Shown piece by piece: positions 14,816 to 46,690 of a DNA stretch of 48,218 nt. Each line of letters starts with the position of its first letter. The stretch's first letter is position 1. Under the pieces are notes generated by a model that did no database searches, was not told the DNA's origin, and saw only the letters and a program-made list of their open reading frames with translations. The translations under genes were made by a program, and so were the position numbers. The stretch is from Pararhodobacter sp. (GTDB lineage Bacteria; Pseudomonadota; Alphaproteobacteria; Rhodobacterales; Rhodobacteraceae). The stretch lies in the NCBI GenBank assembly GCA_020832545.1, contig JAFIEK010000033.1, positions 1 to 48,218 of the forward strand. The letters are read 5' to 3'.

Positions 14816-16147
14816 TCAGCCGAGCGCCGCTTCGGCAGCTGCGCCCAGCCGCAGAAGGCGGGTTTCCTGCATCGGGCCAGCCAGCAGGGTGACCCCGGCG
14901 AGGGGTGTTGTGGTGGGCAGCGTCAGACCGCAGAGCCCCATCAGGTTCCCGATGCGGGCATTGCGCAGGGTTCTCAGGTTTTCGCGGGTGAAGTAGTCAT
15001 GATCGGCCAGCAACTCAGTGGTTTTCGGCGGCAGGTTCGCCGTGCTGGGCACAATAACCGCGTCATACCCGGCCGTCGCCTGCGCAAAGGCGGCGCGCAG
15101 CGTGTCAAGCTGTTGCCATGCGGCGATGTAGTCATGCGCGGCATGCCCGCGCCCGGCGCGGAACCGGTCAAGAACCGGCGGGAACATTCGTTCGGGGTAA
15201 AGCTCGATCAGTGTGCCCCAGGTGCCGTAGCATTCTGACGTGTAGAGAATGCCCGAAAGCTCCATGGCTTCACTCACCTGCGGCAGAGCCGCGCGGGTGA
15301 TCCGGGCCCCTGCCGCAGCAAGACGCGCGACCGCCCGTTCGAACCCCGCAGCGATCACCGGGTCCAGATCATCGAGCGCGATCGTGTCCAGCACCATCAG
15401 CCGCGCCCCCGTCAGGCTTGCCTCGCGCAGGTCGGGCGCGGGGCTGGCGTCCAGCAGGGCAAACGCCAGTGCCGCATCCTCGACCGTGCGGGCCAGCGGG
15501 CCGATTGTATCGAACCGGGCCGCCAGCGGCGCTACGCCGGTCAGCGGAATGCGCCCGGCGGTGGTTTTCAGCCCCACCAGATCATTCCAGGCCGCCGGCA
15601 CCCGCACCGAACCGCCGGTATCAGAGCCAACGGCAAGCGGTGCCAGCCCATGGCGCACCGACGCCGCCGCACCCGAGGACGAGCCCCCCGGCACGGCCTG
15701 TGGGTCATATGCGCCCGGCGGTGTGGCCGTGACCGGGTTCACCCCCAGCCCGGAAAAGGCCAGTTCGGTCATATGCGTCTTGCCCAGCGGCGCCAGCCCG
15801 GCCATGCTCAGCCGCTCCACCACCAGCGCATCGCGGTCAGGCACGCGGCCCTTGAGCAGCGCCGAGCCTGCCTCCGTTGCCACACCTGCCGTATCAAACA
15901 AATCCTTCCAGGACACTGGCACCCCGTCAAGCGGCCCGCGCCGCAGTCCGGCTTTGGCCCGCGCCCGCGCGGCGGCGGCAGTGTCGAGTGCTTGCTGGCG
16001 CATCATCCGCGCATAGATCTGTGCGCCATAAGGGTGGTCTGCCGCCGCCTCCAGAAAACTTTCGGTCAGTTCCACCGGGCAAATGCTGCCCCCCTCAATC
16101 CCGCGCCCCAGATCGGCCGCGCTCATGCTGTGCCAGTTCCTGCTCAT
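14816..16147 (-). CDS. Amidase-signature family amidase
   Basis: A 443-residue hydrolase of the amidase signature family (Ser-cisSer-Lys triad), related to GatA and to small-molecule amidases. Visible: the catalytic Lys in VSWKDLFDTAG, and the Gly/Ser-rich signature with both serines in VPGGSSSGAAASV and GSDTGGSVRVPAA. No gatB or gatC neighbour is present, so it is a stand-alone amidase of unknown substrate rather than the tRNA amidotransferase subunit. The ATG at 16145-16147 opens MSRNWHSMSAADL, a typical N-terminus; the frame runs far upstream through the divergent gene's territory, which is not coding on this strand. Confidence 0.9.
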   Translation of the reverse strand: MSRNWHSMSAADLGRGIEGGSICPVELTESFLEAAADHPYGAQIYARMMRQQALDTAAAARARAKAGLRRGPLDGVPVSWKDLFDTAGVATEAGSALLKGRVPDRDALVVERLSMAGLAPLGKTHMTELAFSGLGVNPVTATPPGAYDPQAVPGGSSSGAAASVRHGLAPLAVGSDTGGSVRVPAAWNDLVGLKTTAGRIPLTGVAPLAARFDTIGPLARTVEDAALAFALLDASPAPDLREASLTGARLMVLDTIALDDLDPVIAAGFERAVARLAAAGARITRAALPQVSEAMELSGILYTSECYGTWGTLIELYPERMFPPVLDRFRAGRGHAAHDYIAAWQQLDTLRAAFAQATAGYDAVIVPSTANLPPKTTELLADHDYFTRENLRTLRNARIGNLMGLCGLTLPTTTPLAGVTLLAGPMQETRLLRLGAAAEAALG

Positions 16148-16173
16148 CCTGCCCTCCAGTCGGTCAGGGCACG

Positions 16174-16208
16174 CTAGAGCAATTCCTGACGAAGGGGAAT
16201 CCGGTTTT
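16174..16208 (+). repeat. Partial dispersed repeat (CTAGAGCA...CCGGTTTT)
   Basis: CTAGAGCAATTCCTGACGAAG followed by GGGAATCCGGTTTT, in the divergent gap between the amidase and ubiH-like genes. It matches the first half of the fuller element at 30801-30906 in plan (CTAGAGCA, a middle, GGGttCCGGTTT). The return arm is missing, so I read it as a decayed or half copy. Confidence 0.5.
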
Positions 16209-16270
16209 GTGACCCTGCCGCGCGGCTTTGGCGCATGGACAATTCCGCCTGCACGGGCATATTGAAAGGT

Positions 16271-17497
16271 ATGACAGTGCAGAGCGATATTCTGATCGTG
16301 GGTGGCGGGCTGAACGGCCCTGCGCTGGCGCTGGCGCTGGCACAGGGCGGCTTTCGCGTTACGCTGGTAGATGCCCGGCTGGCTGGCGCGCGCGCAGATG
16401 ACGGCTTTGACGGGCGCGCCTATGCGCTGGCGCTGGCCTCGGTCAGGGCGCTGACCGCGACGGGTATCTGGCCCGGGCTGGCGGCGCTTGCGCAGCCCAT
16501 TCTGGGCATCCGCGCCAGCCAGGGCCATCCGGGCAAGGGCGCGTTCCCGCTGTTTCTGGGCTTTGAGCATACCGAGATCGAGGAAGGCCCGATGGGCCAG
16601 ATGATCGAAGACCGCCACCTTTACCGCGCCTTCCTTGACGCGATGGAGGCGGCATCCGGCATCACCCTGCGCCACGGCGTCTCGGTTGTGGCGCAGGAAA
16701 CCGATGGCAACCACGCGCAGGTCACGCTGGACACGGGTGAGGTTCTGACCGCACGGCTGCTGGTCGGCTGTGACGGGCGCGACAGCCCCACCGCGCAGCG
16801 CGCAGGTATCAAACGGTGGGGGTGGGATTACGGTCAGACCGCGCTGGTCTGCGCCATTGCCCATGAACTGCCCCATGACGGAATCGCACATCAGTTCTTC
16901 ATGCCCACCGGCCCGCTGGCGATTCTGCCGCTGCCCGGCAACCGCTGCTCGATTGTCTGGAGCGAGGCCACTGGAACCGCGCGCACCTTCGCCGCGCTGG
17001 ATGATGCCGGTTTCCTTGAGGTTCTGCGCCCGCGTTTCGGCTCCCATCTTGGCGAGATCGCGCTGGAGGGACGGCGCTTTGCCTATCCGCTCAAACTGAC
17101 CGTGGCCGAGGATTTCATCGCACCGCGGCTGGCGCTGCTGGGTGATGCCGCGCATGGCGTCCACCCCATTGCCGGGCAGGGCCTGAACCTGGGCCTGCGC
17201 GACATGGCCGCGCTGGCTGAAGTGCTGATCCTTGCCGCGCGCCGGGGCGAGGATATCGCCAGCTCGCTGGTGCTGGAGCGCTATCAGGAATGGCGGCGCT
17301 TTGACACGGTGAAGATGGCGTTGGGAATGGATGCGGTGAACCGTTTATTTTCAAACGACAACCCATTGCTTGAGGTGATGCGTGGGCTGGGGCTGGGGGC
17401 CATCAATGCGCTGCCGGACCTGAAGCGCTACTTCATCCGCGAAGCTGCCGGGCTGAACGCCGCCCAGCCACGGCTGTTGCAGGGCCTGCCGATCTGA
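16271..17497 (+). CDS. UbiH/UbiF/COQ6-family FAD monooxygenase
   Basis: A 408-residue flavin hydroxylase of the ubiquinone-biosynthesis family. Visible: the N-terminal FAD motif ILIVGGGLNGPALALALA, the middle GCDGRDS (DG motif), and the C-terminal LLGDAAHGVHPIAGQGLNLG, which is the UbiH/UbiF/VisC signature. Such enzymes hydroxylate the ring of the ubiquinone precursor at the membrane; alphaproteobacteria often carry one or two with differing position specificity, so I do not choose a letter. The ATG at 16271 is preceded by GAAAGG; an upstream ATG at 16235 would add 12 unlike residues. Confidence 0.9.
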   Translation: MTVQSDILIVGGGLNGPALALALAQGGFRVTLVDARLAGARADDGFDGRAYALALASVRALTATGIWPGLAALAQPILGIRASQGHPGKGAFPLFLGFEHTEIEEGPMGQMIEDRHLYRAFLDAMEAASGITLRHGVSVVAQETDGNHAQVTLDTGEVLTARLLVGCDGRDSPTAQRAGIKRWGWDYGQTALVCAIAHELPHDGIAHQFFMPTGPLAILPLPGNRCSIVWSEATGTARTFAALDDAGFLEVLRPRFGSHLGEIALEGRRFAYPLKLTVAEDFIAPRLALLGDAAHGVHPIAGQGLNLGLRDMAALAEVLILAARRGEDIASSLVLERYQEWRRFDTVKMALGMDAVNRLFSNDNPLLEVMRGLGLGAINALPDLKRYFIREAAGLNAAQPRLLQGLPI

Positions 17498-35519: not shown

Positions 35520-36316
35520 ACCCGCTCCCCCTTGGCGTTGGCGGTCTTGGATATGGCGCCGGTGCCCAGATAAGCCTCGATCACCTTGGGGTGCGACTGC
35601 ACCTCGGCGGGCGTGCCCTCGGCCAGTTTCTTGCCGCCATCCAGCGCCAGAACCCGGTCACACACCTTGCTGACCAGCCCCATGTCATGCTCAACCATCA
35701 GGACCGTGATGCCCATCTGGCGGCGGATGTCATCAATCCACCAACGCATGTCCTGCGTTTCCTCGACTGACAGGCCCGAGGCAGGCTCATCCAGCAGCAA
35801 AAGGCGTGGCTTGGTGGACAGCGCGCGCGCCAACTCCACCACCTTGCGCACGCCATACGGCAGACCGGCGATCATCTGGTTGCGGTAAGGTTGCAGGTCC
35901 AGAAAATCGATCACTTCTTCCACCGCCAGCCGGTGCTCGCGCTCCTGTGCGCGGGCGCGACCGACAAAAAACATCTCTTCCACCAGTGTGGTACGCCGCA
36001 GCCGGTGGCGGCCCACCAGCAGGTTTTGCAACACCGTCGCACGGTCAAACAGCTCGATGTTCTGGAATGTGCGGGCGATGCCCAGTTGCGGCACCTCATG
36101 CGATTTCAGCTTCAGCAGGTCATGCCCGTCAAAGGTGATCGAGCCTGCCGCCGGCCGGTAAAACCGCGAGATCATGTTGAAGACCGTGGATTTCCCTGCG
36201 CCGTTGGGGCCGACAAGCGCGTAAACCTGCCCCTCTTCCACCGACATCGTCAGATCATTGACCGCCGTGACACCGCCGAACTTCAGCGTGACATTGTTCA
36301 GTTCCAGAAGGCTCAT
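35516..36316 (-). CDS. livG: LivG-type ABC transporter ATPase
   Basis: A 266-residue ATPase paired with LivF. Walker A GPNGAGKSTVFNMIS, the LivG-type FQNIELFDRATVLQNLLVGRH segment, a somewhat unusual signature region GLPYGVRKVVELARAL in place of LSGG, Walker B LLLLDEPASGLS and switch His in MVEHDMGLVSKVCDRV. The PYG-type signature (often LPYGQQR) is normal for LivG. It overlaps both neighbours by 4 nt, indicating tight coupling in the operon. Confidence 0.94.
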   Translation of the reverse strand: MSLLELNNVTLKFGGVTAVNDLTMSVEEGQVYALVGPNGAGKSTVFNMISRFYRPAAGSITFDGHDLLKLKSHEVPQLGIARTFQNIELFDRATVLQNLLVGRHRLRRTTLVEEMFFVGRARAQEREHRLAVEEVIDFLDLQPYRNQMIAGLPYGVRKVVELARALSTKPRLLLLDEPASGLSVEETQDMRWWIDDIRRQMGITVLMVEHDMGLVSKVCDRVLALDGGKKLAEGTPAEVQSHPKVIEAYLGTGAISKTANAKGERV

Positions 36317-37395
36317 CTCAGGCGCTCCGTCTTGAGGTAGCTTTTCTGGCGGCGGAACAGGTCACGCCGGGCGAAGGGAAAAAGCTCCAGCCAGATGCGT
36401 AACTTGAGCCATCGGCCATAAAGGCCATGCGGCTCGAAGATAATGAAGGCGATCAGCAGCAAGCCAAAGACCCCCATTTCCAGCCCCGGGATATTGAACC
36501 CGCGCCCCATCTGGTCAGTCAGGATGGACAGGCCCTGCGGCAGAAAGGCCACGACAATCGCGCCCAAAAACGCGCCATGGATAAAGCCCAGACCACCAAT
36601 CACGATCATCATCAGTAGTTGAATGGCGAGCAGGAAATTGAAGGTCTCATTGTTGAACGCACCGGCAAACAGGCCCATCAGCGCGCCCCCCAGCCCAGTG
36701 ATCGCGCAGGAGATGCCGAATGCCATGGTCTTGGTGCGGGCGATATCCACACCCATCGCCTGCGCCGAAATCTCGCTGTCGCGCACGGCGGCGAATGCCC
36801 TGCCGAGCGGCGAGCGCAGGATATTGCGGTAGATCAGCGTCACCACCAGCACCACCACCAGCGCCATGTAATACCAAGCCCCCGGGTTGACCCAGCGGTT
36901 GATCTCATAGCCAAAGATCATCAGATCCGGCGCGAACTTACCGTTCACACCGCCGGTCCAGGGCGAAAGGATCACAATGATATCGTCCGCCAGAATCGCC
37001 AGCGCCAAAGTGGCGATTGCCAGATAGACGCCATGCAATTTGAGCGCCGGAATGGCGATCAGCGCGCCGATCACCCCGGTGATGATGCCGCACAACACAA
37101 AGGCCGCAACAAACGGCACCCCGGCCTCCATCAGGATAACGCAGGTGTAACAGCCCATCGCCATGAAGGCCGAATGGCCAAGGCTGACCTGCCCGGTCTG
37201 GCCGGTCAGCATCATCAGCCCCAGTCCGGCGATGGCCCAGATCAGCACGTTGGTCACTTCGCCCAGGTAGAAGCTGCTGATCACAAAGGGCAATGCCACC
37301 ATCACCGCCAGAAGCGCGGCATAGAGGCTGAAGTTCCACCAGTCCGGAAACAGCCGGATGTCATGGTCATAATCTGTCTTGAAATGAAAGCGCAT
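36313..37395 (-). CDS. livM: LivM-type ABC transporter permease
   Basis: A 360-residue inner-membrane permease with about nine to ten hydrophobic segments and the family sequences TGQTGQVSLGHSAFMAMGCY and GRAFAAVRDSEISAQAMGVD, the latter being the cytoplasmic loop that docks the ATPases. C-terminal GLYGRWLKLRIWLELFPFARRD is a cytoplasmic tail. It starts three bases after the livH stop and its stop overlaps the livG start. Partner of LivH in a heterodimeric channel. Confidence 0.94.
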   Translation of the reverse strand: MRFHFKTDYDHDIRLFPDWWNFSLYAALLAVMVALPFVISSFYLGEVTNVLIWAIAGLGLMMLTGQTGQVSLGHSAFMAMGCYTCVILMEAGVPFVAAFVLCGIITGVIGALIAIPALKLHGVYLAIATLALAILADDIIVILSPWTGGVNGKFAPDLMIFGYEINRWVNPGAWYYMALVVVLVVTLIYRNILRSPLGRAFAAVRDSEISAQAMGVDIARTKTMAFGISCAITGLGGALMGLFAGAFNNETFNFLLAIQLLMMIVIGGLGFIHGAFLGAIVVAFLPQGLSILTDQMGRGFNIPGLEMGVFGLLLIAFIIFEPHGLYGRWLKLRIWLELFPFARRDLFRRQKSYLKTERLR

Positions 37396-37398
37396 GGG

Positions 37399-38274
37399 TC
37401 AGACCTTTTTGGTGCGAACCTGCGCGAACAGGCCGTGCGGGCGGAAGATCAGCACGAGAATCAACAGCGCATAGGGCGCAATCTGGCTGTAACCGGGCGG
37501 CAGGTAGCGCGCCGCGAAGGGTTCGATCACTCCCACGATCAGCCCGCCCATCAGCGCGCCGGGCAGGCTGCCAAAGCCGCCGATCACTGCCGCAGCAAAC
37601 GCCTTGATGCCAATGAACCCGGCGGAAATGTCCAGCGATCCTTTGGATGCGTAAAGTATACCCGCCACGCAGGCGACCATCCCCGCCAGCGCCCAGACCG
37701 CACCCTGCACCCGCTTGACCGGAATGCCCATGTAATATGCTGCCATCTGGTTCTGGCTGGCGGCCTGCATTGCAAGGCCCAGCTTGGTACGCTGGAAAAA
37801 CTGCCACAGCAGCATCGTCATGATCACGGTGACGATAATCACCGCAATATCAGCCAGACTGAGCACCACACCAAACGCACGGATATCGCCCAGCGCCAGC
37901 GGCGAATGCAGGTTGACCGGCTCATGCCCCCAGATCGCCCCGGTGACAAACCGGATGACGAAGCCCAGTGCGATGGTCAGAATTACGATCGCGGTCTGGT
38001 TCTGACCAAACATGTGGCGCAGCACCGTCAGATCTAGCAGATAGCCCAGCGCCCCCATGATCAGAAGCGCGATCGGCACTGCCAGCCAGAAGTTCATGCC
38101 CATGTATTGCGGGTTCACTAGGCCAAGCATGACAAAGGCCCCCAGCATCATGAAATCGCCCTGGGCGAAATTCACAGCCTCGGTGGCCTTGTAGATCAGC
38201 ACGAAGCCCAGCGCCACAAGCCCGTAAACACAGCCGTTGGCCAGACCGCTCAACAGCAGCTGCATAAATTCCAT
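37399..38274 (-). CDS. livH: LivH-type ABC transporter permease
   Basis: A 291-residue permease with about eight hydrophobic segments, opening MEFMQLLLSGLANGCVYGLVALGFVLIY and then EAVNFAQGDFMMLGAF, the standard LivH start. The docking loop is RTKLGLAMQAASQNQMAAYYMGI. The ATG at 38272-38274 follows GGGAGGA; upstream in-frame residues are not membrane-like. First gene of the minus-strand operon livH, livM, livG, livF, acyl-CoA ligase, binding protein and possibly the RutB-like gene. Confidence 0.94.
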   Translation of the reverse strand: MEFMQLLLSGLANGCVYGLVALGFVLIYKATEAVNFAQGDFMMLGAFVMLGLVNPQYMGMNFWLAVPIALLIMGALGYLLDLTVLRHMFGQNQTAIVILTIALGFVIRFVTGAIWGHEPVNLHSPLALGDIRAFGVVLSLADIAVIIVTVIMTMLLWQFFQRTKLGLAMQAASQNQMAAYYMGIPVKRVQGAVWALAGMVACVAGILYASKGSLDISAGFIGIKAFAAAVIGGFGSLPGALMGGLIVGVIEPFAARYLPPGYSQIAPYALLILVLIFRPHGLFAQVRTKKV

Positions 38275-38597
38275 AGATGTCCTCCCAGACCGGCACCGAC
38301 CTGACCACCGAATCTGTCGGTGGACGGTGTGTTTTTCAGGTGCGCTGGTGAAGGATTGCCGCAAGCGTGCCCTGATTCAACCGTTTTTCTCACTCCTGGG
38401 CGCTCCGCGACGCAACGGAAACCCCGGAATTTCGGTGATTCGGGCAAAAGAAAGGCAAAAAAGTGACCCCAAACAGTATTTTCTCTTCTGAATCGTGAGG
38501 TTGAAGGGTATTCTTAACAGGAATCGCGTGACAGGCCCTTATTGGCCGCGTTCTTTCGCTACGATTTTGAGGCACTGCCGGAGCACGGGGTAAGAAA
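38275..38597. promoter_or_regulatory. Divergent control region, livH operon / transglutaminase-like gene
   Basis: A 323-bp gap with no supportable gene and lower GC than its surroundings. Close to livH is an inverted repeat CCACCG-AATCTGT-CGGTGG (38305-38323), which in the livH transcript would be a leader hairpin or could be an operator. The middle (about 38440-38520) is A/T-rich. GGCC-CTTATT-GGCC lies at about 38536-38549. I could not identify convincing -35/-10 pairs on either strand. Confidence 0.4.
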
Positions 38598-39683
38598 ATG
38601 ACGAAGCATTCTGCCAACTTGATCAACCCTGACTTGCTTAATGAGTTTTTTGATTCAACTTTGGGGCTGTATCTTGATGATAACGCAGCACGTGTGTTTC
38701 CGCTGGGCCGCGTTCGCTACCTTGCGCCGGGTGAAGGTCTGAACGATCCAAATCCGTATGCGCTGCACATTATACTGGGCGGTCGGATGGCGGGGCCACA
38801 CACGTGGTTCGGGCCGGGCAACCATATCTCAGGTGCCAATGACGGGTTGCAGGCAGTCGATCTGCCAGCCCGTATCTGGACCCTGGACATGGGCGGCGCC
38901 ACCTGGGCGGCGGCGGCAAACCGGCCGCTGCGCCGGGCGATGACCCATGCCCTGATCGCCGCTGACGCTGCCGAAGCCGCCGCCACACCGCCCGCCGTGC
39001 TGCCGGACCCTGAAACCCTGTGCGACGTGGACCACCCGGAAATCCGGCGCCGCGCCGTGCGTCTGCGCCGGTCCACCCAGGCCAACACGGCGGAAGAGAT
39101 CATGAAATACGTGCAGACCATGCCTTACCGCTTCGGCGCGTGGCAGGAGCGCGCCTCGGACACGATGGCGCGCGGCACCGGCATGTGCACCACCAAGGCA
39201 AATGTTCAGGTCGCGTTGATGCGCGCTGCCGGGCTTGAGGCCGGTTTTGTTGAAATCCCCATGCCGATCACCACACTGGGCAGGCTGATGCCGTCCAGCT
39301 GGCTGGCGCTGATGCGCCCGACTGTGCGCCACTACTTCGCCGCCGTAAAACTGGGCGGGCGCTGGCATTCGGCGGATTCCTCCTATGATTATGAAGCGTT
39401 CAGCGTTTATCTTGAGACCATGCCGCAGTTGCAAAACCTTGTTCCTGTCTTTCTGGGTGAGGGACGGCCGTTCGCGCCAGCGATCGAATCGGAAGGGAAT
39501 GACCCGTTCGATATTACCGTGGTGCCCCATCTGAATGAAGAAATGGGCAAGCGCAGCCGCTTTCAGACCCGCCATTTTGAGGCACTCAACACCCGCCTTG
39601 ACCGTGTGCGCGGCACGCAGCGTTATTGGGCACGGGTGGCCATGGAACAAGCGGCCCGCGACAACACCGAGGCGCTTGCATGA
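38598..39683 (+). CDS. Transglutaminase-fold protein of unknown function
   Basis: A 361-residue soluble protein with no signal peptide. An unassigned N-terminal region (1-165, with NPYALHIILGG and a Gly/His-rich FGPGNHISG) precedes a transglutaminase-like core: Cys197 in GTGMCTTKANVQ, His245 in VRHYFAAVKL and Asp260 in WHSADSSYD form the expected triad. Bacterial members may be proteases, amidases or peptide cross-linking enzymes. The stop overlaps the ATG of the CoaBC-like gene by 4 nt, so both proteins are made together and probably act in one pathway. The ATG at 38598 is preceded by GGGGTAAG. Substrate unknown. Confidence 0.82.
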   Translation: MTKHSANLINPDLLNEFFDSTLGLYLDDNAARVFPLGRVRYLAPGEGLNDPNPYALHIILGGRMAGPHTWFGPGNHISGANDGLQAVDLPARIWTLDMGGATWAAAANRPLRRAMTHALIAADAAEAAATPPAVLPDPETLCDVDHPEIRRRAVRLRRSTQANTAEEIMKYVQTMPYRFGAWQERASDTMARGTGMCTTKANVQVALMRAAGLEAGFVEIPMPITTLGRLMPSSWLALMRPTVRHYFAAVKLGGRWHSADSSYDYEAFSVYLETMPQLQNLVPVFLGEGRPFAPAIESEGNDPFDITVVPHLNEEMGKRSRFQTRHFEALNTRLDRVRGTQRYWARVAMEQAARDNTEALA

Positions 39684-40951
39684 AACCATATGATTGGGAT
39701 TTCGCCGCCCCCACACCCTCGGGGATGGGCGATCATGATGTGCCCATGCTCTCGCAACGGCTGGCCGGGCGGCGCATTGCGCTGCTGGTGACCGGTGGGA
39801 TCGCGGCGATGAAAACGCCGCAGATCGCGCGCGGGCTGCGGCGGCATGGCGCGCAGGTGGTGGCCTTCGCCAGCGATGACGCCTTGCGCTATGTTGCGCG
39901 CGAAGCGCTGGAATGGGCCACCATGGGCCCGGTCATCACGGGGCTGACATGGCGCGCAGAGCATCTGTCAGATGACGCGCCGTTTGACGCCTATCTGCTC
40001 GCCCCCGCCACACATTCCACCATTGCCAAGATGGCGCATGGTATCGGCGATACGGTGGTAAGCTCGGCGCTGATTTCCGCATTGGGGCGGCTGGCACAAG
40101 GGCGCACAAAGGTGCTGGTTGCGCCGACGATGCATGGCACGATGCACAACGCCCAACTGGTGGACAATGCGCGCAGGCTGGCAGAGCAGGGCGTGCGCTT
40201 TGTGGCCCCGCGTGATGCCTATGGCAAGCATAACCTGCCTGACACCGAGGTGCTCTGCATCGCGGTTGGCCGTGCGCTGAGCACATCGCCGCTGATCGAC
40301 CGCAAGATCATGGTGACTGCCGGGCCAACCCCGGTACCTGTCGACGGAGTGCGCCGGATCGTCAACCGGTTTCGGGGACGGCTGGGCGCGCGCGTCGCCG
40401 AAGAGCTGATATGGCGCGGGGCCGATGCCGAGCTAATCCTTGGTGACGGTGCCTGGCGTCCGTCAGCGCCAATCCCGCTCACGATCACCCGCACCTTTGA
40501 TGAATACCGCGACACTGTAGTCGCGCGCGCGCAATCAGGCCTGTTTGCGGGTGTCTTTTCAGCCGGTGTGGCTGATTACCGGCCCAAAAAGGCCGTTGTC
40601 GGCAAGATCGCCTCAGGACAAAGCAGCCTGATGCTGGAACTGGAACCCACTGAAAAGGTGATCGACCTTGCCTGTCAGGCGGACCCGGTCATGCATTGCG
40701 TGGCATTCAAGTATCTTGAGGGTGTGAGCGAGGAAGAGCTGGTGCGCGTGGCGGCGAAACGGCTAGATCACGCGGGCCTTGTGGTGGCCACACGGGGCGA
40801 GGATACGCGCGGCACCGAACAACGCGCATTGATGGTCGCCCGTGACGGGGTCACCCCGCTTGAGGACAAGCGCGCCATCGCCATCGCCATCGCAGATTAT
40901 CTGGAGGGGCTGGCACAGAACGGGCACCCGATCCTCGCCGCAGCGGAGTAA
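39680..40951 (+). CDS. Divergent CoaBC/Dfp-like flavoprotein
   Basis: A 423-residue protein with an N-terminal flavoprotein domain (about 25-205: LLVTGGIAAMKTPQIARGL, LLAPATHSTIAKMAHGIGD) and a C-terminal CoaB-like domain (about 208-415: MVTAGPTPVPVDGVRRIVN, GVADYRP). CoaBC makes phosphopantetheine during CoA synthesis. His95, aligned with CoaC's catalytic His, remains. The PxMN motif is PTMH (Asn to His152), the ACGDxGxGRM flap Cys is missing, the CoaB HSSGKMG loop is RFRGRLG and the KIKK motif is KIAS. I therefore think it is a paralogue acting on another substrate, not the housekeeping CoaBC. It is coupled to the transglutaminase-like gene. Confidence 0.8.
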   Translation: MKPYDWDFAAPTPSGMGDHDVPMLSQRLAGRRIALLVTGGIAAMKTPQIARGLRRHGAQVVAFASDDALRYVAREALEWATMGPVITGLTWRAEHLSDDAPFDAYLLAPATHSTIAKMAHGIGDTVVSSALISALGRLAQGRTKVLVAPTMHGTMHNAQLVDNARRLAEQGVRFVAPRDAYGKHNLPDTEVLCIAVGRALSTSPLIDRKIMVTAGPTPVPVDGVRRIVNRFRGRLGARVAEELIWRGADAELILGDGAWRPSAPIPLTITRTFDEYRDTVVARAQSGLFAGVFSAGVADYRPKKAVVGKIASGQSSLMLELEPTEKVIDLACQADPVMHCVAFKYLEGVSEEELVRVAAKRLDHAGLVVATRGEDTRGTEQRALMVARDGVTPLEDKRAIAIAIADYLEGLAQNGHPILAAAE

Positions 40952-40997: not shown

Positions 40998-41774
40998 TCA
41001 CTTGGGCTTTTTCGGAGTATTCACCGCCGGGATAAGGCTGGCCAACTCCATCGGGAAGGGGAAAATGATTGTCGAGTTCTTTTCACCGGCGATAATGTTG
41101 AGCGAGCTGAGATAGCGCAACTGCATCGCGCCGGGGTCCCTGGACATGATCTGCGCGGCTTCCAGCAACTTCTCGGCCGCCTGCGCCTCACCTTCGGCGT
41201 TGATCACCTTGGCGCGGCGCTCGCGCTCAGCCTCGGCCTGCCGGGCGATGGCGCGGATCATCGATTCGTTCACATCCACATGCTTGATCTCGACATTTGA
41301 AACCTTGATGCCCCATGTGTCGGTCTGCGCATCCAGCAGTTCCTGAATGTCGCTGTTGAGCGTGTCGCGTTCGGACAACATTTCATCAAGCTCGTGTTTA
41401 CCAAGGACTGAGCGCAGCGTCGTCTGCGCCAGTTCGCTGGTCGCCTGCATGAAATCCTCCACCTGAATGGTGGCGCGCTCTGCATCCATCACCCGGAAAT
41501 AGAGCACGGCATTGACCCGCACCGAGACATTGTCACGGCTGATCACATCCTGACTGGGCACGTCCAGCACCTTAACCCGCAGATCCACGCGCACAATCTG
41601 CTGAACGAACGGGATCACGATGATCAGGCCGGGGCCCTTCACACCTGTAAAGCGGCCCAGCGTAAAGACCACCCCGCGCTCATATTCGCGCAGCACCCGA
41701 ATAGCCGAGGCCAGCAGACCCAGCACAAAGACGCCAAGCACGCCGTAAAAGCCGAAACCGAACAAGATATCCAT
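40998..41774 (-). CDS. Slipin (SPFH/band 7 membrane protein)
   Basis: A 258-residue stomatin-like protein: one N-terminal membrane helix (about residues 3-22), then the SPFH domain beginning [21 protein letters not shown] and running through [19 protein letters not shown], and an Ala/Glu-rich helix (about 175-215; [22 protein letters not shown]) that drives oligomer formation. Slipins form membrane rings and pair with NfeD proteases. Here the NfeD gene lies 30 bp upstream on the same strand, which is the conserved operon partner. Confidence 0.93.
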
Positions 41775-43894: not shown

Positions 43895-45214
43895 TCAGAC
43901 TGCCGTCACATGGATGCGGTGGCAGGCGTTGTTGAGATATCCGCGCGGGTTCCAGCCGGGCACAACTGCAGGCTGGCTGCGGCCCCTGTTGTCGGTGGCG
44001 CGAGCCCAGACCTCATAATAGCCCGTGAGAGGCAGGGATACCTGCGCCCGCCAGCGCTGCCACGAATAGCGGTTCGGCGCGGGTTCCACCGTAGCGGTTT
44101 GCCATGTCGCGCCAAAATCGACCGACACTTCCAGCCCGGTCACCCAGTCATCACCTGCCCAGGCCTGGCCACGCACTTCGAAGGGACGGCCTGCCGGCAC
44201 TTCCGTTCCGGCCATCGGATGAGTGATCGCCGATTTGACGATCAGCGAGGTCATGACTTCCATGTCTTCATGCGCCACTTCTGCACCGGGCTCGACCGGG
44301 TGGCGCGGCACGCGGTAGCTCAGGCCCGTCATGCCCGGGCCGGTATGCTCGCGGTCCAGAACCTCGATCCGGGTCAGCCATTTCTGGCTGACAGACCCCG
44401 CCCAACCGGGCGCCACGATCCGCGCGGGATAGCCATGCGCGATCGGCAGGTCTTCGCCGTTCATTTTCAGTGCGATGATGGTGTGTGGGTCCATCATCTT
44501 GGCAATCGGCCCGCCGCGCGAGATGGCCTGACGGTCAGGATCACCCGAAAGATGCGGATCATAGCCATAGTGACCAGTATAAACAGCCGAGGGCTTGAGC
44601 CCGGCACGGCGCAAAATGTCCGAAACGCGCACGCCAGTCCATTCGGAATTGCCGATCGCGCCGATCATCCAGGGGTTTCCACGTGGCAGCGGGTTGAACC
44701 CGGCGCGCCCGTTGCCGCCGCATTCCAGCTGCAAGCGCAGGGTGACATGATCGAAATCATTCATCAGCTCATCAAAGCTGAGTTCCAGCGGCTCGTTCAC
44801 CTCGCCGTCGATGGTCAGCCGCCAGTCGGCCTTGCTCATCGGCATGGGCATGGCGCCGTTGTTGCGGATAAAATGCACATCCGCCGGGGTGACGTCATGA
44901 TCCAGCAGATGGGCGGGGGTTTCCATGTTCACGGGGCGATCATTGTGGATGATCAGATCACCATGCTTTGAGTCGAATTCAAACTCGTCCAGTGTCTCGG
45001 CCAGCGCATTGGGGATCAGCCCCAGCGGCATGTTCGCCGAAAACGGCATGGTTGTGCCCAGAATCGCGCCCATGGACGCAAGACCCGCCCCGCGCAGAAA
45101 ACCGCGCCGGTCTGGCCCGGCCTTGCGGCCGAATACCAGCCAGTCCGCGCGTTCGTGGTCCTCGTGATAGAGTTCGACGATACCGCGTTGTGCTTTCCCG
45201 TTTCTTCTCGCCAT
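43895..45214 (-). CDS. Sulfite oxidase-family molybdoenzyme (SorA/SorT/SoxC-like)
   Basis: A 439-residue periplasmic molybdenum enzyme. A Tat signal (DRRGFLRGAGLASMG, residues 35-49) precedes the molybdopterin domain with the Mo-ligand Cys165 in LQLECGGNGRAG, the substrate-binding region APGWAGSVSQKWLTRIEV, and a C-terminal dimerisation domain ending WNPRGYLNNACHRIHV. It carries no haem domain, which fits a SorA- or SorT-type sulfite dehydrogenase using a separate cytochrome, encoded 10 bp downstream. SoxC is a close relative, but no sox genes are near. The ATG at 45212-45214 follows GGAGG. Confidence 0.88.
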   Translation of the reverse strand: MARRNGKAQRGIVELYHEDHERADWLVFGRKAGPDRRGFLRGAGLASMGAILGTTMPFSANMPLGLIPNALAETLDEFEFDSKHGDLIIHNDRPVNMETPAHLLDHDVTPADVHFIRNNGAMPMPMSKADWRLTIDGEVNEPLELSFDELMNDFDHVTLRLQLECGGNGRAGFNPLPRGNPWMIGAIGNSEWTGVRVSDILRRAGLKPSAVYTGHYGYDPHLSGDPDRQAISRGGPIAKMMDPHTIIALKMNGEDLPIAHGYPARIVAPGWAGSVSQKWLTRIEVLDREHTGPGMTGLSYRVPRHPVEPGAEVAHEDMEVMTSLIVKSAITHPMAGTEVPAGRPFEVRGQAWAGDDWVTGLEVSVDFGATWQTATVEPAPNRYSWQRWRAQVSLPLTGYYEVWARATDNRGRSQPAVVPGWNPRGYLNNACHRIHVTAV

Positions 45215-45354: not shown

Positions 45355-46383
45355 TCAGGGCGCAGGTGTGGGCAGGGTGACGGCATCGGGATAAACGGGC
45401 TGCATGTCGATCATGTCAGCCGTCAGCCCGGCCCCGTTGTGGATCAGCGCAATCACCTCTCCGTTCAGCAGCACGCTGGCGACGCCGGTGTCAGGGTCAT
45501 GCGCAATGCTGACCTCTGGCGCGGCTTCCTCTCCGGTATAGGCCAGCATCAGACCGTCCTCGCCGGGGGTAAAATCCATGATCTCGGCCGGGGCGGCTCT
45601 GCCCAGCCAATCCCCCAGAATGAACGTGTCAGACCCGCGGCCACCGGTGGCGATATCGCCCGCACCCAGCACGATCAGATCATCACCGTCGCCGCCATTG
45701 AGGTAGTTGGCACCCCCGACATCGACACCGTCCTCATTGAGGTGAACGCCAATCAGTGTGTCATTGCCCGCGCCGCCCGTCAGCAGGTTGTTGCCCGCAC
45801 CCGCGATCAGCAGATCGTCGCCCCAGCCGCCCTGCAACGTGTCGTCGCCCGCGCCGCCAAAGAGCGTGTCACTCCCCTCACCTCCGGTCAGCAGGTCATC
45901 GCCATCGCCCCCGATCAGCAGATCATCGCCGGGGCCACCCCTGAGCGTATCATCGCCAGCGCCGCCGATGAGCGTGTCGTCCCCGTCGCCACCTTGCAAC
46001 GTGTCATTTCCTGCACCGCCGCGCAGAAGGTCATCGCCGGGGCCGCCGACAAGCCGGCCGCCATTGTCGTCAGTGCGCAGATCCTGATCTTCCGGCGGTA
46101 CCTCGGGGGTGTCACGGCTGATGAACTCGTCATCCTCCCATTCACCCGCCCAAGGGTCCTCATCGGTGTCGGTTTCGTCAGCGCGGTCATCAGGGTCAGA
46201 ACCATCTTCAGGGCCAGCACCATCACCGGGTGGTGACAGGTCGATATAGCCACGCCCGCCGCCCTCATCCTCCGGCGGGGCGTCAGAGGCGGGCTCGTCG
46301 TCAGAATCAGATTCATACCGGATGAAGCCGTCAGCAACGCTGCCCGCCATCATCAATCCGATCAATCCCATCAGCAGCCACAT
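45355..46383 (-). CDS. Membrane-anchored RTX (calcium-binding nonapeptide) protein
   Basis: A 342-residue protein: an N-terminal hydrophobic segment (1-20, MWLLMGLIGLMMAG), a very acidic Pro/Asp/Glu linker (about 23-110), eleven tandem GGxGxDxLx nonapeptides (about 113-211) that would form a Ca-bound beta-roll, a partly degenerate last block (GGDGDDLIVL, GGRGSDTFIL) and a C-terminal domain (about 255-342). There is no protease, lipase or toxin domain. The N-terminal segment suggests Sec targeting or anchoring rather than the usual C-terminal type I signal alone. The ATG at 46381-46383 has GGAGG upstream. The role may be adhesion or surface calcium binding; unproven. Confidence 0.85.
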   Translation of the reverse strand: MWLLMGLIGLMMAGSVADGFIRYESDSDDEPASDAPPEDEGGGRGYIDLSPPGDGAGPEDGSDPDDRADETDTDEDPWAGEWEDDEFISRDTPEVPPEDQDLRTDDNGGRLVGGPGDDLLRGGAGNDTLQGGDGDDTLIGGAGDDTLRGGPGDDLLIGGDGDDLLTGGEGSDTLFGGAGDDTLQGGWGDDLLIAGAGNNLLTGGAGNDTLIGVHLNEDGVDVGGANYLNGGDGDDLIVLGAGDIATGGRGSDTFILGDWLGRAAPAEIMDFTPGEDGLMLAYTGEEAAPEVSIAHDPDTGVASVLLNGEVIALIHNGAGLTADMIDMQPVYPDAVTLPTPAP

Positions 46384-46690
46384 GCCGCGCCTCCGCCTGT
46401 TCTGGCAGGCAGGCCCGCCGCCTGCCTCCGCACACAGGTTTACACCGGCCTGAATGAACAAAACGAGAATCAATCAGGGTTAACAGCGCGGAATCTGCAA
46501 AGCTGGTTAACGCGCCGATCATCACGCGGGGCGGCCCGGTCCCGGCGATTGCGCAGGCAGTTGATCTTGCCCCCGTTCTCGCCTATACGCGCCCATCCTC
46601 GGGTGATTCATGGCCCGCGGAGACCTCCATGGGCCCTGCTGGACGACATCCCGGCCTGCGCCTTAAACACGCATCATAAAGGAGACCCCG
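46384..46690. other. Divergent gap upstream of rpsO
   Basis: 307 bp without a supportable gene. It contains the candidate rpsO promoter at 46561-46588 and an rpsO leader of about 100 nt with a possible hairpin (GGCCC...GGGCC, about 46612-46637). The RTX side shows two GTTAA-containing stretches (about 46478-46510) that may belong to its promoter. Confidence 0.45.
46561..46588 (+). promoter_or_regulatory. Candidate sigma-70 promoter of rpsO
   Basis: TTGATC (46561-46566), a 16-bp spacer and CTATAC (46583-46588), about 100 bp before the rpsO ATG. Good for an alphaproteobacterial housekeeping promoter, though spacing is one short of ideal. Confidence 0.45.

Follow-up and report, generated by a model that had tools for sequence, protein, structure and literature searches.

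A transglutaminase-like protein paired with a CoaBC-like flavoprotein in Pararhodobacter: a candidate accessory phosphopantothenoylcysteine decarboxylase system

Organization of the gene pair

The window, i.e., the whole stretch of 48,218 nucleotides analysed here, covers contig JAFIEK010000033.1 of Pararhodobacter sp. from position 1. It carries two adjoining genes, the first for a transglutaminase-like protein and the second for a flavoprotein related to CoaBC of coenzyme A synthesis, a pathway that is nearly universal. The pair is considered here as a candidate accessory decarboxylase system. The two genes share an ATGA overlap and the Cys-His-Asp triad of the transglutaminase is intact, both as claimed in a preliminary description of this DNA. 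The orientation of the flanks, i.e., divergent genes on one side and a convergent slipin gene on the other, was likewise as described there. Genes were called with a GC-based greedy script at a length of at least 60 amino acids, and the features of the locus are collected in Table 1.

Table 1. Features of the gene pair and its flanks, in window positions
Feature	Position	Strand	Basis or remark
First gene, transglutaminase-like protein of 361 aa	38598-39683	+	ORF, Pfam, alignment
Probably decayed cyclic-nucleotide-binding-like domain, about residues 20-130, lacking the phosphate-binding cassette	38655-38987	+	AlphaFold model, PF00027 of relatives, alignment
Transglutaminase core PF01841 with Cys197 (39186-39188), His245 (39330-39332), and Asp260 (39375-39377)	39069-39377	+	
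ATGA overlap, stop of the first gene and start of the second	39680-39683	+	
Second gene, CoaBC-like flavoprotein of 423 aa when started at the overlapping ATG	39680-40951	+	
N-terminal family signature of the flavoprotein, about WDFxxPxPSxMGDHDVP	39692-39745	+	Low confidence in the monomer model
CoaC-like flavin domain; His95 (39962-39964); His152 (40133-40135) replacing Asn of PXMNXXMW; flap Cys lost	39767-40249	+	
CoaB-like domain; Arg225, Asn229, Asp299, and Lys309 kept; SSG changed to FRG; KxKK reduced to one Lys	40292-40918	+	
Two divergent neighbour genes, 36313-37395 and 37399-38364	36313-38364	-	Constant neighbours only within the genus of the window
Convergent slipin, Band_7	40998-41774		Together with NfeD

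Of 28 complete loci, one per genome, 24 offer a start codon that gives a four-base overlap with the first gene. Loci of this kind come from Alphaproteobacteria, Gammaproteobacteria, and KSB1. In four Roseibaca-type loci (L007, L009, L014, and L017), the flavoprotein start lies 12 bases after the transglutaminase stop. On sequence grounds, the two genes are predicted to be translationally coupled in the cell.

Transglutaminase-like protein

Transglut_core (PF01841) was recognized at residues 158-260 of the first protein, with 33.9 bits against a cut-off of 23. Cys197, His245, and Asp260 were invariant columns in a 17-row alignment, and the triad was present in 33 of 34 loci. The remaining locus, L018, ends after the Cys. 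The core and triad are shared with bacterial transglutaminase-like proteins such as 3ISR. Unlike them, the present protein has an N-terminal cyclic-nucleotide-binding-like domain and, in the proteobacterial branch, a flavoprotein partner.

The N-terminal domain was seen in the AlphaFold model, which had a mean pLDDT of 90. The best fold match of this part was the cyclic-nucleotide-binding domain of PycTIR (8JSJ, E 2.2e-4, TM-score 0.54 normalized by target length); many CAP-type domains ranked next. The model also matched 3ISR (E 4.5e-4). PF00027 gave no match to the window protein up to E 1; it was matched by the relatives L020-L023 from KSB1 and Okeania, with E 5.5e-11 to 8.6e-13. The phosphate-binding cassette, judged by its usual pattern, is deleted in 13 proteobacterial alignment rows and present in L020-L023. 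Because the relatives match PF00027 and the proteobacterial cassette is gone, the relatives probably have a cyclic-nucleotide switch, which has probably decayed in the proteobacterial branch. The N-terminal third of the window protein is therefore probably a decayed cyclic-nucleotide-binding domain. The preliminary description had overlooked this domain, as well as the altered active-site residues of the flavoprotein.

CoaBC-like flavoprotein

In the second protein, the Pfam families Flavoprotein (PF02441) and DFP were found with 69.6 bits (cut-off 22.7) and 82.1 bits (cut-off 22), respectively; they correspond to the two halves of CoaBC. The cut-off of the CoaBC equivalog model TIGR00521, 219.7 bits, was not reached by the window protein (178.8) or by the members of L011 (200.0), L015 (199.4), and L021 (218.8, i.e., just below). 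Members of this family can thus easily be mistaken for ordinary CoaBC. The CypD model NF033753 gave 15.3 bits against 215. The predicted structure (pLDDT 78) has the fold of full CoaBC, with 6TGV matched at a Foldseek E of 2e-20.

A separate normal CoaBC is encoded in the genome of the window (a DFP gene of 228 bits against 83). Phylogenetically, 15 family members and 37 CoaBC proteins, among them those of the same genomes, are split into their two sets by one branch with 100/100 support; the program warned of long branches for this tree. The assignment of the flavoprotein as genuine CoaBC was rejected because of this second CoaBC in the genome and because residues, score, and tree differ.

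Residues were compared at the columns conserved in at least 90% of CoaBC. His95, the catalytic His of the decarboxylase, is kept in 15/15 family members and in 37/37 CoaBC proteins. The ligase residues Arg225 and Asn229 and the metal-binding Asp299 are kept in 15/15 as well. In the KxKK motif, the first Lys (Lys309) is kept in 15/15, the second is replaced by Ala, Val, Thr, or Pro, and the last one is Ser in 15/15. The SSG of the ligase is replaced by FRG in all 15. In mycobacterial CoaB, as far as described in PMC7794376, the ligase residues are R207, N211, and D281 in Msm numbering; Arg207 matters for the cysteine step, Asp281 binds the cation, and contacts to the triphosphate come from the lysines of KxKK. 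For the plant decarboxylase AtHal3a, the account in PMC9604783 gives His90, Asn142, and Met145 as required in the first half-reaction and Cys175 in the second.

The N-terminal signature precedes the flavoprotein fold from KSB1 to Rhodobacterales. Its part MGDHDVP, which was also a search string, was found in 30/30 loci (two from one genome), and a few loci differ in the first half of the signature. The segment is poorly ordered in the monomer model and is possibly a docking peptide.

Occurrence and probable transfer of the pair

The pair is known from Rhodobacterales, Saccharospirillum, and the candidate phylum KSB1. Neither of the two findings that had been set beforehand as refuting the proposed pair was made: the genes adjoin in other genomes, and the flavoprotein is split from a genuine CoaBC that the genome also encodes. 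By scanning genome contigs with the first protein, 21 loci were obtained, and the flavoprotein adjoined in 18 of them, including L006, where only its first 47 residues precede the contig end. One locus, L018, ends within the transglutaminase; a second contig of this genome, L130, carries the tail of the transglutaminase along with the flavoprotein. No adjoining flavoprotein was found in the other two, i.e., L020 (KSB1) and L023 (Okeania). In their genomes, as in the cyanobacterium G667, the flavoprotein profile gave only matches at the level of CoaBC (best E 3e-16 to 2e-22).

Within the genus of the window, the pair was found in 17 of 18 genomes, that of the window included; the exception, G007, is 82% complete. 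A search for DFP domains gave a second DFP gene in 17 of these 18 genomes, with the transglutaminase adjoining in 17/17. None of the 27 other genomes in this search had two intact copies, and two fragments each were seen in G025 and G042. In broader flavoprotein searches, matches were found in 4 of 345 genomes of the family of the window and in 2 of 244 genomes of the order of Saccharospirillum. The transglutaminase lay upstream in 6/6 of these matches, of which five were already known from earlier searches and G1003 was new. Full-length members detected with the first-protein profile numbered 1 among 398 Pseudomonadota genomes (that of the window), 3 among 82 KSB1-group genomes, 2 among 194 cyanobacteria, and 1 among 243 genomes of the order of G667. 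With so few full-length members in a broad sampling, the family is conserved but rare. Matches in G293, G302, G520, and G526 (E about 1e-16 to 1e-18) were excluded as plain small Transglut_core homologues, which was confirmed by Pfam for G293, G302, and G526.

Pairwise distances of the two proteins were correlated (r = 0.92, 105 sequence pairs from 15 genomes), a figure to which shared ancestry contributes. The paired flavoproteins of Saccharospirillum, a gammaproteobacterium, and of the window are 78% identical, against 45-46% for the genuine CoaBC proteins of these genomes. Horizontal transfer of the pair between Alphaproteobacteria and Gammaproteobacteria is the simple reading of these values.

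No third gene common to the lineages was found among gene calls of at least 60 amino acids; shorter precursor genes were not searched. Since neighbours differ outside the genus of the window, the pair appears to be the whole unit conserved between lineages at this length of gene call. SerC, SerA, and metallophosphoesterase were rejected as fixed partners, because they lie upstream in at most eight loci of the Roseibaca/Roseinatronobacter group, with names taken from L007 only. Histidine kinases were rejected as well, because they stand beside L015 and the KSB1 loci and no partner is common to all. Carriage by phages was rejected, because no relatives were found in viral contigs and the three proteins scanned had no PHROG matches. 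As for plasmid cargo, also rejected, P0002 matched 11 plasmid records at 26-37% identity, of which eight are annotated as CoaBC and three are unannotated there; the KSB1 transglutaminase matched nothing in plasmids, and the KSB1 flavoprotein matched one CoaBC at 32%.

Loss of CoaC in the Roseibaca clade

PF02441 was searched in 12 pair-bearing genomes. Full CoaBC was found in 7/7 genomes outside the Roseibaca clade (G000, G001, G1003, Saccharospirillum G456, G463, G1475, and G1476), and in 5/5 genomes of the clade only the paired flavoprotein was found. The five are R. ekhonensis CECT 7235, Roseibaca sp. Y0-43, R. domitiana V10, and two metagenome assemblies; completeness is known for one of them, i.e., 99% for Y0-43. 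G463 carries the name Roseinatronobacter, under which NCBI now places Roseibaca. In the flavoprotein tree the five genomes form one group with moderate support (93/87, 92% of bootstrap trees), so a single loss of CoaC is likely.

In two of the five genomes, G462 and G889, the CoaBC locus was read. It codes for CoaB alone (L144:4124-4795 and the matching place in L143), with the neighbouring genes in place and the CoaB motifs intact. The gene of G889 was located by its motifs, the gene caller having favoured an antisense frame. A weak resemblance to CoaC where the Roseibaca CoaB gene begins (E 0.043) was attributed to chance. Between G462 and G889, CoaB showed dN 0.097 and dS 0.927, i.e., purifying selection. 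Because dN is low relative to dS, CoaB is in use in these two genomes; its product should then still be made, and a decarboxylase would be needed. The only candidate of the PF02441 family in the clade is the paired flavoprotein. The retained CoaB also fits with a paired CoaB-like domain that would be unable to make the amide.

Substitution rates of the pair were estimated by an NG86-type method and are rough, with some dS values near saturation. In four Roseibaca loci, the flavoprotein had a median dN/dS of 0.064 and the transglutaminase one of 0.063. The corresponding medians were 0.158 and 0.274 in 13 genomes of the genus of the window, and 0.157 and 0.139 in G463, G1475, and G1476, where CoaBC is kept. 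The evolutionary rates of the flavoprotein and of CoaBC are about equal.

Possible function

The pair is proposed, tentatively and as a reading slightly more apt to be wrong than right, to be an accessory, non-canonical phosphopantothenoylcysteine decarboxylase system that is horizontally transferable and able to replace CoaC. The two genes would act as one translationally coupled and transferable functional unit. The CoaC-like domain would decarboxylate phosphopantothenoylcysteine or a very similar cysteinyl amide, and the kept His95 would start the flavin-dependent oxidation of the cysteine moiety. Other residues would stand in for the Asn and Cys of CoaC, the candidates being the invariant His152 and a Lys-His-Asn in the flap. 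The CoaB-like domain, which has lost most of the contacts to the nucleotide triphosphate, probably binds the pantothenoyl moiety instead of making the amide. The transglutaminase-like partner might act on the same small molecule by forming or breaking an amide, or might complete the active site. Roseibaca and its clade would have replaced CoaC by the pair. The pairing and its conservation, the separate CoaBC, the residue changes, and, in two genomes, the loss of CoaC with CoaB retained were observed; the decarboxylase activity, the role of the partner, and the coupling are predicted here from gene and residue comparisons.

The probability given to this proposal rests on the loss of CoaC, and several observations weigh against it. 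The loss probably happened once, in a single clade (n=1), with the CoaB-only locus seen in 2/5 genomes, and Roseibaca may instead use a decarboxylase outside PF02441 or the uptake of pantetheine. The Asn of PXMNXXMW is replaced by His152 and the column of the redox Cys in the flap is a gap in 15/15 family members, those of Roseibaca included. The other pair-bearing genomes examined keep CoaBC, so the pair must act beyond simple replacement. Stronger constraint on the pair in Roseibaca lends weak support to replacement. It is weak because the rate ranges overlap (0.065-0.272 for the flavoprotein and 0.024-0.587 for the transglutaminase of the genus), because CoaB was also slower in one Roseibaca pair (0.101 vs 0.163), and because the Roseibaca dN values relative to CoaB, 0.61 and 0.52, lie within the genus ranges of 0.30-1.54 and 0.13-3.06.

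The pair may act on a different cysteine-containing amide, i.e., a small thiol, a peptide, or a natural product, unrelated to coenzyme A, while Roseibaca relies on salvage or an unknown enzyme. This is rather unlikely. The residue losses in 15/15, the scores of the window protein and three other members below the TIGR00521 cut-off, and the CoaBC retained by holders outside the Roseibaca clade all agree with it, and the patchy distribution suits an accessory pathway. Purifying selection on CoaB in a clade with no detected CoaC is hard to explain if no decarboxylation takes place, and no third gene of at least 60 amino acids is common to the lineages. The preliminary description had suggested joint chemistry on a peptide, a thiol, or a pantetheine-like compound. 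The pantetheine-like option is now favoured by the CoaC loss in Roseibaca; for the peptide option, gene calls of at least 60 amino acids showed no shared third gene, shorter ones not having been searched.

It is improbable, to a clearly greater degree, that the flavoprotein is a half-enzyme resembling Hal3, lending its His to a mixed site with CoaBC, or a flavin or pantothenoyl sensor controlling the transglutaminase. Its residue pattern, i.e., His kept with PXMNXXMW and Cys lost, is that of yeast Hal3 as outlined in PMC9604783, and CoaBC, whole or in part, is likewise present in 17/17 holders of the genus. Against this stand the five Roseibaca-clade genomes, which keep the flavoprotein at a dN/dS of 0.064 (four loci) with no CoaC partner detected. 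It is very improbable that the transglutaminase is an effector gated by cyclic nucleotides, in signalling or in a Pycsar-like defence, and the flavoprotein its accessory. Distant members do have the cyclic-nucleotide-binding domain, that of PycTIR is the best fold match, and two relatives match Pycsar models of PADLOC weakly (13.6-17.5 bits). However, the 13 proteobacterial rows lack the cassette, the window proteins have no PADLOC match, and no cyclase was seen among the neighbour genes scanned with Pfam, which were not all of them. In addition, the pair stands at one place in 15/15 gene-called loci of the genus, and the flavoprotein rate is close to that of CoaBC.

A bolder form of the decarboxylase proposal is unlikely. 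It would make the pair a second, two-protein solution for converting phosphopantothenoylcysteine to phosphopantetheine, with new catalytic residues, the transglutaminase as an obligate subunit, horizontal spread, and displacement of CoaC in Roseibaca. The CoaC step has been described in PMC9604783 as requiring the fixed residues His, Asn, and Cys. A lineage with CoaB and one odd flavoprotein beside a transglutaminase-like partner, and without CoaC, is a direct test of alternative chemistry.

Compared with CoaBC (TIGR00521, PDB 6TGV), the flavoprotein is alike in domain order, fold, catalytic His, ligase Arg, Asn, and Asp, and one Lys. It differs in its score below the cut-off, its separate clade, the lack of PXMNXXMW, flap Cys, SSG, and two KxKK lysines, and the extra N-terminal signature. 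A further difference is the transglutaminase adjoining in every flavoprotein locus examined. The yeast half-enzymes Hal3 and Vhs3, as presented in PMC9604783, similarly keep the His and lack PXMNXXMW and the Cys; unlike Hal3, which needs Cab3 for the missing residues, the Roseibaca flavoprotein has no CoaC found in its clade to lend them. The flavin-binding family and fold are also those of the peptidyl-cysteine decarboxylases of the EpiD/LanD type, CypD, TvaF, and SpaF. These enzymes are not known to have a CoaB-like domain, and neither is yeast Hal3. No precursor gene as in the LanD and CypD pathways was found among gene calls of at least 60 amino acids, shorter peptides not having been searched.

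In agreement with the claim that no pathway with this pair has been described, searches of open-access full texts aimed at the pair listed no paper that concerned it by title or beginning of the abstract. In the same literature, no paper on CoaC loss in Roseibaca was among the matches listed.

Neighbouring genes and other observations

The divergent neighbours (gene clusters c3 and c4) were found at the pair in 15/15 gene-called loci of the genus. They are putatively LivM- and LivH-like; liv was also the name used in the preliminary description. Upstream of the pair, at 38485-38514, the loci of the genus loosely share CTTCT, about 19 bases, and TATTCT, which is possibly a promoter. In six loci of the Roseibaca/Roseinatronobacter group, a metallophosphoesterase gene (L007:5042-5815 and its equivalents) lies just upstream of the pair, after serC and serA. 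The slipin and NfeD genes next to the pair in the window have relatives at L080:7698-10910, where they adjoin a stand-alone transglutaminase-like gene.

Elsewhere in the window, a 782-residue ORF at 14816-17164 has an Amidase domain in its C-terminal half only, and its first 360 residues had no Pfam match at E 1e-5. A molybdopterin oxidoreductase was found at 43895-45214, and a protein with RTX calcium-binding repeats at 45355-46473.

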